Notes under the pieces: generated by a model
Databases searched by the model: none
Seen by the model: only the letters and a program-made list of their open reading frames with translations
What the model was told of the DNA's origin: nothing
Part shown: positions 23,944 to 28,325 of the stretch, piece after piece
Numbering within the stretch: the stretch's first letter is position 1
How the letters are laid out: every line of letters starts with the position of its first letter
Position numbers and translations under genes: made by a program
Assembly (NCBI GenBank): GCA_022821145.1
Contig: JAJEEE010000048.1
Span: 1-62,001 of the forward strand
Length of the DNA: 62,001 nucleotides
Direction of reading: 5' to 3'
Source of the DNA: Acidobacteriota bacterium
GTDB lineage: Bacteria > Acidobacteriota > Terriglobia > 20CM-2-55-15

Positions 23944-23990
23944 TGAGACGATTCGTCCCAATAATCGTCTCAAAATCAGGCCTATTCTGA
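23862..23990 (+). CDS. Possible 42-residue small protein upstream of fic
   Basis: An ATG preceded by AAGGAG at a 10-base spacing opens a short frame (MNLACDRHGNRSCRRKEAG at the N-terminus, arginine-rich) whose stop codon TGA is the first three bases of the second operator palindrome. It has no hydrophobic segment and no known motif. The ribosome binding site is the only support. It could equally be a leader peptide or chance. Confidence 0.25.
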   Translation: MNLACDRHGNRSCRRKEAGPRRFPGPSLRRFVPIIVSKSGLF

Positions 23991-24016
23991 GACGATTAGC
24001 CTGTAGAATCGTCTCA
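23944..24016. promoter_or_regulatory. Two tandem palindromic operators upstream of fic
   Basis: Two copies of the perfect inverted repeat TGAGACGATT - 9 bases - AATCGTCTCA lie at 23944-23972 and 23988-24016. Their centres are 44 bases apart, about four helical turns. The spacers differ (CGTCCCAAT and AGCCTGTAG), so only the four half-sites are conserved. The second copy covers a possible -10 box (TAGAAT, 24004-24009) and ends 1 base before the GTG start of fic. Binding there would block transcription, as expected for autoregulation by a DNA-binding protein. Confidence 0.85.
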
Positions 24017-24017
24017 G

Positions 24018-25166
24018 GTGTGGATCTGGCAACATACCAACTGGCCGAATTTCGTCTTCGATGCTACCGAGTTCTCGGAGCAGGTCGCGGCGTTTCACCG
24101 AATCGCCGAACGGCTTTCCGGGCAAGTCGAGGCCCTCTCCGACGCCTACCAGACCGACACGGTGATCGAACTGATGTTGTCGGAGATAATCGCCACCAGC
24201 GCGATCGAGGGCGAAAACCTGGACCGCGTTTCGGTGCGTTCGTCCTTGCTCAAGCATTTCGGTCGAAGCGTCGATTCCCGGGCCCCGGATGCCCGGGCGG
24301 CCGGCGCCACCGACCTGATCGTCGACGTTCGTCGGAACTGGCGTCGCCCGCTATCCCACGAGACGTTGGGCCGCTGGCAATCTCGAGTTATCGTCGAGCA
24401 TCCCATGAGCACCGTCATGCGCGGCGCCTACCGCAATCGTCCGGAGCCGATGCAGATCATCAGCGGGCGATACGCAGTCGGTCGGCCGCCGACCGTTCAC
24501 TACGAGGCGCCGCCGGCCGCCGACGTGCCTGCCGAGATGGAGCGGTTCCTGGACTGGTACAACGGCAGCGGCGGGAATCTCCCCGGCCCGGTTCGCGCGG
24601 CCGTCGCGCACGTCTGGTTCGAGACGATCCACCCGTTCGACGATGGCAACGGTCGCGTTGGCCGGGCCGTCTCGGATCATGCGCTGTCGCAGTCTCTCGA
24701 CCGGCCGACACTCGCCTGTCTGGCAACCGCCATCGAGGCGGACAGGGACCGTTACTACGACGCGCTCGAAACGGTCGGCAGAGGCGGTCTCGACCTGACC
24801 GAGTTCATCGGATATTTCACCGGCGCCATCAACCGGGCCCAGGAGATCGCTCTCGCCGAGGTCGCTTTCGTGCTAGATAAGACCCGCTTCTACGACCTCT
24901 ATGACGCGCGGCTGAACGCGCGTCAGAGGAAGGTCATCGCCCGCATCTTCAGGGAAGGCAGACGCGGATTCGCCGGCGGACTGTCCAGGAAGAACTACGC
25001 CACCATAGCCGGGTGTTCGGCGGCGACCGCCGCCCGAGATCTGGTCGAGATGCTGAACATGGGTGCGTTGGTTTCCCATGGACAAGGCCGGAGCACGCGC
25101 TACGAAATCTCCTGCCCTGAGCCGTCCGCGGTCGCTCGGAACGTGGGACGAGGGCTCGAACGCTGA
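24018..25166 (+). CDS. Fic-family protein with N-terminal DUF4172-like and C-terminal winged-helix domain
   Basis: Fic proteins transfer AMP (or related groups) from a nucleotide to hydroxyl side chains of target proteins. The 382-residue protein begins MWIWQHTNWPNFVFD, as in DUF4172-Fic proteins. It has an intact active-site motif HPFDDGNGRVGR at 205-216. A self-inhibitory helix motif TSAIEG (T60 to G65) of the [S/T]xxxE[G/N] type makes this a class II Fic. The C-terminal part (SRKNYATIAGCSAATAARDLVEM) is a winged helix-turn-helix. The start is a GTG with no ribosome binding site, right behind a palindrome. That suggests a leaderless, self-repressed gene. Confidence 0.92.
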   Translation: MWIWQHTNWPNFVFDATEFSEQVAAFHRIAERLSGQVEALSDAYQTDTVIELMLSEIIATSAIEGENLDRVSVRSSLLKHFGRSVDSRAPDARAAGATDLIVDVRRNWRRPLSHETLGRWQSRVIVEHPMSTVMRGAYRNRPEPMQIISGRYAVGRPPTVHYEAPPAADVPAEMERFLDWYNGSGGNLPGPVRAAVAHVWFETIHPFDDGNGRVGRAVSDHALSQSLDRPTLACLATAIEADRDRYYDALETVGRGGLDLTEFIGYFTGAINRAQEIALAEVAFVLDKTRFYDLYDARLNARQRKVIARIFREGRRGFAGGLSRKNYATIAGCSAATAARDLVEMLNMGALVSHGQGRSTRYEISCPEPSAVARNVGRGLER

Positions 25167-25514: not shown

Positions 25515-25772
25515 ATGCCATCGTTCATCAGAACTCAGATCCAACTGACGGAAGAACAAGCCAGGGCGCTCAAAGCCCGCGCGCGCGATGAAGAACGTTC
25601 GGTGGCGGATCTCGTGCGTGAAAGCGTCACGGAGTACCTGGCGCGCCGGCCCGCCCGAGATCGTCGCGCCCTGCTGCGTCGCGCCCGCGCCGTGACCGGG
25701 CGTTTTCACTCGGGATACACCGACGTAGCGGAGAATCATGACCGGTACCTCGATGAGGCGTACGATTCGTGA
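25515..25772 (+). CDS. vapB: VapB-type antitoxin, ribbon-helix-helix
   Basis: An 85-residue protein. The N-terminus (MPSFIRTQIQLTEEQARALKARARDEERSVADLVRESVTEYL) has the beta-strand plus two-helix pattern of ribbon-helix-helix DNA-binding proteins, and the C-terminal tail is likely the toxin-binding part. The toxin start codon overlaps the stop by 4 bases (GTGA), the standard coupling of vapBC pairs. It would neutralise the PIN ribonuclease and repress the operon. Confidence 0.85.
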   Translation: MPSFIRTQIQLTEEQARALKARARDEERSVADLVRESVTEYLARRPARDRRALLRRARAVTGRFHSGYTDVAENHDRYLDEAYDS

Positions 25773-26179
25773 GCCTGTTCATCGATACATCGGCTCTGTA
25801 CGCTCTCCTTGACGGGGACGCACCCCGGCACGCGGACGTGGTTGCGGCCTGGCGGATCGTCGCCGACAACGAGCGGACCCTGTTTACCTCGAACTACGTC
25901 CTGGTCGAAGCGTTCGCCCTCGTTCAGCGCAGGCTTGGCCTTGAGGCCGTTCATGGTCTTGCGGATGTTCTTGTGCCGCTGCTCGAACCCGTGTGGGTCG
26001 ACGAGGAACTCCATGCCGCGGCGGTTGCGTCGCTCTTCACCGCGGCGCGGCGACGCCTGTCGCTGGTGGATTGCACCAGTTTCGAGCTGATGCGCCGCCT
26101 TGGATTAACCGATGTTCTGGCGCTGGACGCGGACTTCGCCCATCAAGGCTTCAACCTGCTCCCTGCCGGCCAGGCATGA
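25769..26179 (+). CDS. vapC: VapC-type PIN-domain ribonuclease toxin
   Basis: A 136-residue PIN-domain protein. The four acidic active-site positions are visible: D6 in FIDTSAL, E47 in LVEAF, D101 in LVDCTSFE, and D120 or D122 in ALDADF. PIN toxins cut tRNA or rRNA using magnesium or manganese. The start is GTG inside the vapB stop. It follows the Fic gene, so two growth-inhibition systems lie in tandem within about 2.2 kb. Confidence 0.9.
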   Translation: MSLFIDTSALYALLDGDAPRHADVVAAWRIVADNERTLFTSNYVLVEAFALVQRRLGLEAVHGLADVLVPLLEPVWVDEELHAAAVASLFTAARRRLSLVDCTSFELMRRLGLTDVLALDADFAHQGFNLLPAGQA

Positions 26180-26393: not shown

Positions 26394-28325
26394 TCAGGGA
26401 AGCGCGTACGCGACGAGGTTGGCGGGGGTTCGGGTTTCGGACGTTCCCGCCGCGGCGAACACGATGTACTGCCGGCCTTCGTGCATATAGGTGATCGGCA
26501 ATCCCGTCTGCTCGCCGCCTCCGGGGATGTCCGTTTCCCAGAGAATCTCGCCCGTCGCCTTGTCCAGGGCCCGGAAGACGGGCAGGCCCTCGTAACCCTC
26601 GCCGGCGAACAGCAGCGTGCGGGTAACGAGCAGGCCCGCTCGCGACTCGCTGCCCGTCCGCGGCAGGTCCACCCCGGCGAGTAGCGGGTTCTCGGCGATG
26701 TGCGGGGGCGTGTCTCCGTTGGCGATCTGCCAGACCAGCTCGCCGCGGTTCATGTCCAGCGCCGTGATCCGGCCCCAGGGTGGCTTCACGACCGGGAGGC
26801 GGCCTTCCAGGCGCGGGGCGAAACCGCCCACGCCTACCAGCCGCATGTCCGACTCGCCCGGCTCGGGTTCCCGCAGGCCGTACGCCGCGGTGCTGGTCCG
26901 CGTGGCCGATCCCACGTACAGGTAGCCGGTCTCCGGGTCGATGGCCCCGCCTTCCCAGTTGGCGCCCCCGGAGCCGGGAAACGTGAAGGTCCCCCGCATC
27001 CCTCGGTCCGGATCGATCAGCGACGGCGGCGTGTACAGTGGGCCGATCCGCAGCCCCTCGATCGACTGCAACGCGAGTTCCCGGAGCTGGGGCGTGTAGT
27101 CGAGCAGGTCGTCGACGGACAGGCCCTGCCGGTCGAAGGCCGGGGGGCGCGTCGGGAACGGCTGGGTCGGGGACGTCCGCTCGCCCGGCGCGTCGCTCTG
27201 GGGCACGGGGCGTTCCTCGATCTCGAACACGGGCTCGCCCGTGCGCCGGTCGAACGTGAACGCGAACGCCATCTTGGAGAGTTGAACGACGGCTTCCACC
27301 GCCCGCCCGTCGACCTCCAGGTCCATCAGGATCGGGGCCGAGGGCGGGTCCCAGTCCCAGACGTCGTGGTGGACGATCTGCTGGTGCCAGATGCGCTCGC
27401 CGGTCCGGATATCGAGGCAGACGATCGAGCCGGCGAACAGGTTGTCTCCGTGGCGGTGGCCGCCGTACTCGTCGCCCGTGGCGCCTTCGACCGGGATGTA
27501 TATGTAACCCAGCGCCTCGTCGACGGTGAACGGCGTCCACGCGCCGGCGTGCCCGGTGTAGACGTTGGAGTCGTCCGCCCAGGTGTCGGCGCCGAACTCC
27601 CCGGGGCGGGGGATCGTGTGGAACGTCCAGATCTTCTCGCCGGTCCGCGCGTCGAACGCCATGATATCGCCTTTGGGATACCGCATCGACGGGGGCACGC
27701 GCGCATTGGCCAGGGAGGTGGGGACGACGATGACGTCGTGGGCGACGGCCGGCGGGGACGTGTTCATCAACCTGCCGACGGCCGGGTCGTAGTTCGCGTC
27801 GGGCTCCAGTTGGGTGAACAGGTCGACGATGCCGCCGTCGCCGAAGCCCGGCACGAGTTGTCCGGTGCGGGCGTCGAGCGCGACGAGCTGGTATTCGGGT
27901 GTGACCGTGACGATGCGCGCCTCGGTCCCGTCGGTCCAGTAGGATACGCCGCGGCTGTTCCGGCGCACGGCGTCGAGGCTGTCGTGGTCGGTCCGCCAGA
28001 CCCAGAGCGTTTCGCCCGTGCCGGCGTCGGCGGCGACGACGGCCCGCCGGTTGCCCGACGTGAAGTACAGGATCCCGTCGACCATCAGCGGCGTCGTCTC
28101 GTTCTTCATCTCCAGCGTCGTGCCGAAGTTGTCCGAGCGCCAGATCCACGCCACCTCGAGCCGGTCGACGTTCGTGCGGTCGACCTGGTCGAGCGGGGCG
28201 TACCGCGTGCTGCCCGGATCGCCGCCCCACGCGCGCCATTCGCCGTTCTCGGCGCCGTGCTGGGCTCCGAGCGCCGCGGCGCCCATCCACGCCGACGCCA
28301 CAGCCGTCAAGACCGAACGAAGCAT
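26394..28325 (-). CDS. Secreted PQQ-dependent quinoprotein dehydrogenase (GCD-like propeller)
   Basis: A 643-residue protein with signal peptide (about residues 1-21). Tryptophan-docking repeats of an eight-bladed beta-propeller run throughout (for example AVVAADAGTGETLWVW, IMAFDARTGEKIWTF, IVCLDIRTGERIWHQ, TALDMNRGELVWQI, RALDKATGEILWET). This is the fold of quinoprotein glucose and alcohol dehydrogenases. It lacks the N-terminal membrane anchor of Gcd and is a free periplasmic form. There is no cytochrome domain, so electrons must pass to a separate acceptor. The SD AGGAG precedes ATG. The substrate is unknown. Confidence 0.9.
   Translation of the reverse strand: MLRSVLTAVASAWMGAAALGAQHGAENGEWRAWGGDPGSTRYAPLDQVDRTNVDRLEVAWIWRSDNFGTTLEMKNETTPLMVDGILYFTSGNRRAVVAADAGTGETLWVWRTDHDSLDAVRRNSRGVSYWTDGTEARIVTVTPEYQLVALDARTGQLVPGFGDGGIVDLFTQLEPDANYDPAVGRLMNTSPPAVAHDVIVVPTSLANARVPPSMRYPKGDIMAFDARTGEKIWTFHTIPRPGEFGADTWADDSNVYTGHAGAWTPFTVDEALGYIYIPVEGATGDEYGGHRHGDNLFAGSIVCLDIRTGERIWHQQIVHHDVWDWDPPSAPILMDLEVDGRAVEAVVQLSKMAFAFTFDRRTGEPVFEIEERPVPQSDAPGERTSPTQPFPTRPPAFDRQGLSVDDLLDYTPQLRELALQSIEGLRIGPLYTPPSLIDPDRGMRGTFTFPGSGGANWEGGAIDPETGYLYVGSATRTSTAAYGLREPEPGESDMRLVGVGGFAPRLEGRLPVVKPPWGRITALDMNRGELVWQIANGDTPPHIAENPLLAGVDLPRTGSESRAGLLVTRTLLFAGEGYEGLPVFRALDKATGEILWETDIPGGGEQTGLPITYMHEGRQYIVFAAAGTSETRTPANLVAYALP

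Follow-up and report, generated by a model that had tools for sequence, protein, structure and literature searches.

Fic enzymes tag proteins with AMP. Fic proteins with a C-terminal helix-turn-helix domain are widespread, and CccR is the only one for which a mapped operator was found in the open-access literature. The subject here is a fic gene on a 62,001-nucleotide stretch of an Acidobacteriota genome (contig JAJEEE010000048.1, positions 1 to 62,001; the whole stretch is called the window), which encodes such a protein and is preceded by two palindromes with identical arms. To judge from the DNA and the encoded protein, this enzyme very probably switches off its own gene through these two sites.

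CccR of Yersinia pseudotuberculosis is a class II Fic protein with a C-terminal helix-turn-helix. As a dimer, it represses its own promoter via inverted repeats near -35 and -10, and loss of dimerisation abolishes the repression (PMC9755527). CccR is also a secreted effector of the type VI secretion system (PMC9755527). In CbFic2 (CBU_0822, PDB 8CIL), the winged helix-turn-helix (wHTH) binds DNA, the protein dimerises on DNA, and deAMPylation is favoured (PMC10628234). CbFic2 is the structural reference for this architecture; lacking a known specific site, the work on it used random DNA only, and the authors leave the identification of such a sequence to later studies (PMC10628234). The Sofic defence protein has been reported to have anti-phage toxin activity and a small downstream antitoxin, AS1 (PMC12249575). 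DNA binding has not been demonstrated for SoFic (PMC10628234).

Operators of the fic gene and its relatives

The two palindromes of the window (Table 1) start 44 bp apart. Identity between them is limited to the 10-bp arms, the spacers being CGTCCCAAT and AGCCTGTAG. The proximal copy overlaps a TAGAAT box and ends at 24016, so that a single base separates it from the GTG at 24018. The preliminary description of this DNA had given the same arrangement, and the sequence agrees with it exactly. Shuffled versions of the window contain no copy of the palindrome, and a third copy is absent from the 4.18-Mb genome (89 contigs) even with up to 3 mismatches allowed. The bare half-site TGAGACGATT has five exact occurrences genome-wide, four of them within the operator pair. 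The genome has ten Fic-domain matches, one of which carries DUF4172; the other Fic genes examined are without a TG-type palindrome pair.

The comparison with relatives was based on 173 DUF4172-Fic genes, most of them taken from genomes of Acidobacteriota, Pseudomonadota and Bacteroidota; of these genes, 154 were non-redundant and had at least 100 bp of upstream sequence. A palindrome was counted if it had a total length of 29 and at least 7 of 8 outer pairs, with dinucleotide shuffles providing the expectation. A 29-bp palindrome is found upstream of 114 of the 154 genes, against 8.4 expected, and perfect 8/8 palindromes occur in 67 (0.5 expected); the enrichment is strong at odd lengths around 29. 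The palindrome rate is 74% upstream of Fic, as opposed to 2% inside the gene and 8% in each of two other controls, namely the stretch lying another 484-600 bp upstream and the regions that precede other open reading frames.

The spacer between the arms is typically 9 bp in the family, and the gaps between neighbouring palindromes are mostly 5, 15-16 or ~26 bp. Left arms recur at 34, 44 (45) or 55 (54) bp, i.e. in steps of about one helical turn, and 44 bp is the commonest distance between a gene's two best palindromes (16 of 48 genes). This spacing series supports the placement of dimers on one helix face. The preliminary description had proposed cooperative binding on one face; the face is in keeping with the series, and the cooperativity itself we infer. 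Half-sites are 86% identical between the two palindromes of one gene, compared with 53.5% between genes.

Six sister genes (~74% protein identity) retain both palindromes with the 44-bp offset unchanged. Their proximal half-site is TGAGGCGATT or TGAGGTGATT, accompanied by P335 and T339, whereas in the window gene TGAGACGATT goes with A335 and A339. At the distal site, the sisters have a weaker palindrome of the form TGAT..GATT, whereas both copies in the window are perfect. Where one genome carries several such genes, the operator of each gene examined fits the residues of that gene, as illustrated by two paralogues of a single genome, L174 (SRA) with TGAGTTATAA and L179 (SPA) with TGAGCGATAG.

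Correspondence between the winged helix and the half-site

A clean half-site in the TG register could be assigned to 110 of the 154 genes. Besides those already named, the half-sites of the family include TGAGCCGAAT, TGATTAATAA, TGCGGAGATT, TGCGGTGAAT, TGCGTAGATT, TGCAACGATT and TGGAGCGATT. The TG at positions 1 and 2 follows from the choice of register and hence provides no evidence. Protein columns were ranked by partial Mantel correlation, controlled for distance over DUF4172 and Fic. The top column is residue 336 for position 3 (r 0.90), residue 334 for position 4 (0.62), residue 335 for position 6 (0.29), and residue 357 for positions 7, 8 and 10 (0.75, 0.81 and 0.90, respectively). The best column for positions 5 and 9 falls outside the winged helix, with a weak to moderate association. 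Simple mutual information also raised columns 94, 229 and 231 outside the winged helix, most of which disappeared under distance control.

At position 3, all 54 cases of D336 have C, and all 53 cases of A336 or P336 have A. Pairs of proteins that are 30-40% identical elsewhere differ in 0.13 of 6 half-site bases if they share residues 334, 335, 336 and 357, and in 3.5 otherwise. For pairs of 30-50% identity, this gap is 3.06, against a mean of 0.65 and a maximum of 2.57 for random sets of variable columns. Across the DUF4172-Fic family, the operator keeps a constant geometry, and its half-site appears to be set by residues 334-336 of the recognition helix for the outer bases and by residue 357 of the wing for the inner ones.

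The rule was written down before the hold-out, for which 24 plasmid copies were then gathered from Sedimenticola, rhizobia, Deinococcus, Acinetobacter, Vibrio, Moraxella and others. Position 3 was correctly given by residue 336 in all 18 evaluable cases (permutation p ~1e-4) and position 8 by residue 357 in 17 of 17 (permutation p ~2e-4). Because the plasmid genes share some descent with the training set, the hold-out is support and not proof. The alignment of upstream regions of DUF4172-Fic orthologues, which the preliminary description had suggested, has found the sites conserved family-wide and covarying with the protein, and the rule held on new genes. The core of the preliminary reading has strong support from this; the toxin nature of the enzyme and the tight shut-off of its expression are the conjectural parts of that reading.

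DUF4172-Fic is found on 427 of 72,556 plasmid records, as single genes that often lie beside recombinases, transposases or partition genes. Two Fic annotations, L191 1501-3264 and L200 601-1989, are longer than the rest (1764 and 1389 bp) and therefore have extra C-terminal sequence beyond the winged helix.

The Fic protein and its start site

Pfam recognises PF13776 (DUF4172; 1.9e-24, 86.2 bits against a cut-off of 25) and PF02661 (Fic; 2.3e-15, 57.6 bits against a cut-off of 24) in the protein. Its Fic motif is an intact and complete HxFx(D/E)GNGRxxR, in which H205, N211, R213 and R216 are invariant in 50 relatives. The class II self-inhibition motif of the preliminary description is present as TSAIEG. 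It conforms to the pattern (S/T)xxxE(G/N) ahead of the Fic motif and aligns with the TSAIEG of 8CIL; I63, E64 and G65 are invariant in 50 relatives. The AlphaFold2 model (predicted local distance difference test score 93.1) has helices 301-313, 324-331 and 335-348 and strands 351-354 and 361-364 at the C-terminus, the last two helices forming a helix-turn-helix and the strands a two-stranded wing. Both this model and the fold match to 8CIL confirm the winged helix that had been assigned to the C-terminus. The protein thus unites DUF4172, Fic motif, class II motif and C-terminal winged helix, the full set that defines the DUF4172-Fic-wHTH (CbFic2) type.

A TANNNT sequence at operator position 17 is present in 19 of 47 TGCG-type relatives and in 4 of 26 TGAG-type relatives. 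A leaderless or near-leaderless transcript of the window gene is plausible because the TAGAAT-like box and the start position are retained in the sister genes, but it receives no backing from a sigma-70 promoter scan. The one-base distance between operator and start is a trait of a small clade and not of the whole family, many relatives starting further downstream.

Table 1. Features of the operator region and the fic gene in the window.
Feature	Positions	Strand	Basis or remark
Distal operator, 29-bp palindrome TGAGACGATT-N9-AATCGTCTCA	23944..23972	.	exact match
Gap between operators, 15 bp	23973..23987	.	-35 region would fall here if TAGAAT is the -10
Proximal operator, 29-bp palindrome, arms identical to the distal copy	23988..24016	.	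exact match
-10-like box TAGAAT inside the proximal operator (operator positions 17-22)	24004..24009	+	sequence
fic gene, GTG start, 382 aa, DUF4172 - Fic - winged helix	24018..25166	+	Pfam and fold match
Class II inhibitory motif TSAIEG, residues 60-65 (T60 to G65)	24195..24212	+	translation
Catalytic Fic motif HPFDDGNGRVGR, residues 205-216 (H205-PFDDGNGRVG-R216)	24630..24665	+	translation
C-terminal winged helix, residues 301-364	24918..25109	+	AlphaFold2 model
Residues 334-336 (S-A-A), recognition helix start	25017..25025	+	covary with half-site positions 4, 6 and 3
Residue 357 (G), wing between the two strands	25086..25088	+	covaries with half-site positions 7, 8 and 10

Proposed autoregulation and alternative explanations

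We are confident that the window gene encodes a self-contained, autoregulated Fic AMPylase whose winged-helix dimer would bind both palindromes and repress its own promoter. As in an autorepressing Fic protein such as CccR, the inverted repeats lie at the gene's own putative promoter and covary with residues of its own wHTH. Measured precedents are CccR for the autorepression and CbFic2 for a switch of activity driven by DNA. Binding, repression and cooperativity at these operators are predictions from sequence. The dimeric C-terminal winged helix would recognise TGAGACGATT half-sites, and Fic dimers would occupy the two 29-bp palindromes, probably in a cooperative manner. Because the proximal operator holds the -10-like box and extends to the start codon, bound Fic would be expected to cover this box and the start site, to exclude RNA polymerase and so to repress its own transcription. 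A drop in the Fic level or a disruption of the dimer would bring transcription back on.

Several results weigh against this proposal. About 26% of family members have no 29-bp palindrome at the threshold applied. A sigma-70 promoter scan recognised no full promoter and no good -35 hexamer. The rare residues S, T and R at position 336 are represented by too few cases for a rule, and two hold-out genes, L206 and L212, fit imperfectly. L206, from a Bradyrhizobium plasmid, combines Q335/A336 with a mixed operator of TGCAGAGAAT and TGATGAGATT arms and seems to depart in part from the rule for position 3. A strict tree test with independent pairs had only ~5 changes at position 3 and was underpowered, which is why reliance is placed on the partial Mantel ranking, the low-identity pairs and the hold-out; its direction is consistent with the code (2.8 pairs the same way, 0.0 opposite).

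The palindromes might be operators of another regulator, either the ribbon-helix-helix (RHH) protein at 25515-25772 or a host repressor, with Fic not binding them at all. Such an assignment would suit the RHH/PIN pair directly downstream of fic, as RHH antitoxins commonly bind palindromic operators. However, sister loci without the RHH/PIN pair still keep the palindromes, the site has no further copy in the genome, and the half-sites track the winged-helix residues of Fic itself, even among paralogues of one genome; a foreign regulator is therefore quite improbable. The covariation between the arms alone would also fit RNA hairpins in a leader transcript, acting as an attenuator or riboregulator, since a stem of 10 bp and a loop of 9 nt could arise from each palindrome. 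With the -10 at TAGAAT, though, both palindromes lie upstream of or across the transcription start. Moreover, half-sites recur between the separate palindromes of a gene although stem formation does not call for it, the bases change together with residues of the protein, and a terminator scan found no terminator-like tail, all of which makes hairpins highly improbable. An origin of the repeats as the terminus or footprint of a fic-bearing mobile element is scarcely credible: the gene does move without conserved neighbours and is frequent on plasmids, where recombinases or transposases often lie close by, but the repeats stand on the promoter side only, at fixed mutual distances and with no copy found downstream of the gene, and they change along with the Fic recognition residues.

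A separate matter is whether DNA binding affects the enzyme activity. The repressor half of the proposal is well supported, while the activity half is drawn by homology from CbFic2, and CccR argues against it. An operator-bound dimer may be repressor and low-activity enzyme in one, and the CbFic2 analogy would suggest that the dimer on DNA is coupled to low AMPylation or to deAMPylation. Autorepression through these sites may equally go along with DNA binding that is independent of the enzyme activity, so that operator DNA would leave AMPylation unchanged, and we give this version only slightly less than an even chance. A dimer mutant of CccR no longer repressed but was still toxic and active in AMPylation, and its authors describe the two activities as independent of each other (PMC9755527); CbFic2, however, the closer relative by sequence and fold, shows DNA-induced dimerisation and deAMPylation (PMC10628234). 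More doubtful is the proposition that the operator DNA acts as the antitoxin. Cognate binding would then repress the gene and also lock the dimeric, deAMPylating state, and gene and promoter would make up a complete self-controlled unit that owes its specificity to a few recognition residues.

Neighbouring genes

Directly downstream of fic, at 25515-26179 (+), a gene for an RHH/CopG-type protein (PF01402; 25515-25772) overlaps one for a PIN-domain protein (PF01850), the two forming a VapBC-like toxin-antitoxin pair. This pair was not found at the sister fic loci. A gene for a pyrroloquinoline quinone (PQQ)-dependent dehydrogenase (PF01011, 4.5e-180) at 26394-28325 (-) faces the fic, RHH and PIN genes. 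Of the window genes tested, Fic alone was recovered in the sister flanks, a search that did not extend to partner genes of other kinds, and the window genes tested include no conserved adjacent antitoxin of the kind that marks a type II toxin-antitoxin system. The earlier statement that the gene has no separate antitoxin holds to this extent: none of the window genes tested accompanies fic as a conserved partner at the sister loci.

Comparison with known Fic systems

The window gene was compared with CccR and CbFic2 through published operators and PDB matches. CbFic2 8CIL is the best PDB match by sequence (1.6e-63) and also the best fold match, with a Foldseek template modelling (TM) score of 0.82-0.88; it has the DUF4172-Fic-wHTH architecture along the whole length and the TSAIEG in common with the window protein. 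CbFic2 is described as acting on host histones, and autoregulation was not reported (PMC10628234), whereas autoregulation is proposed for the window gene, and nothing in the present results points to an action on histones.

The operator of CccR, AGATAATCAT-N26-ATGATAATCT, differs from that of the window, which has a 10-N9-10 arrangement twice and does not show the 10-N26-10 geometry. The N26 was considered as an inter-palindrome gap of the 5, 15, ~26 kind, but identity of geometry is not claimed, the CccR gap being 28 in the TG register. The 7xux chain (380 aa), which we take to be the Fic chain of CccR, matches the window Fic weakly (4.4e-5 by sequence, TM 0.51 by fold). SoFic (Shewanella SO_4266, PDB 3EQX) has a C-terminal winged-helix-like domain like that of the window Fic, with a weaker fold match (TM 0.57-0.60). 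The best PADLOC model for the window protein is nevertheless SoFic (1.1e-36 over residues 12-362), although the protein carries DUF4172 and is nearer to CbFic2 in fold.

The DUF4172-Fic-wHTH architecture and Fic autorepression were already known from single cases, and no description of a family-wide Fic operator or residue-to-base code was found in the open-access literature. The protein-DNA code would allow specific sites to be predicted for many DNA-controlled Fic enzymes and could supply the target sequence that is missing for the CbFic2 type, which opens binding and activity switching to testing with cognate DNA. It also indicates how a single-gene Fic unit that lacks an antitoxin gene can control itself and move between genomes and plasmids, and the naturally matched variants of protein and operator form a good model series for changes of winged-helix specificity. 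What is new is the operator geometry across the DUF4172-Fic family together with its recognition code: the principle of CccR in a different geometry, conserved across phyla and readable from sequence.
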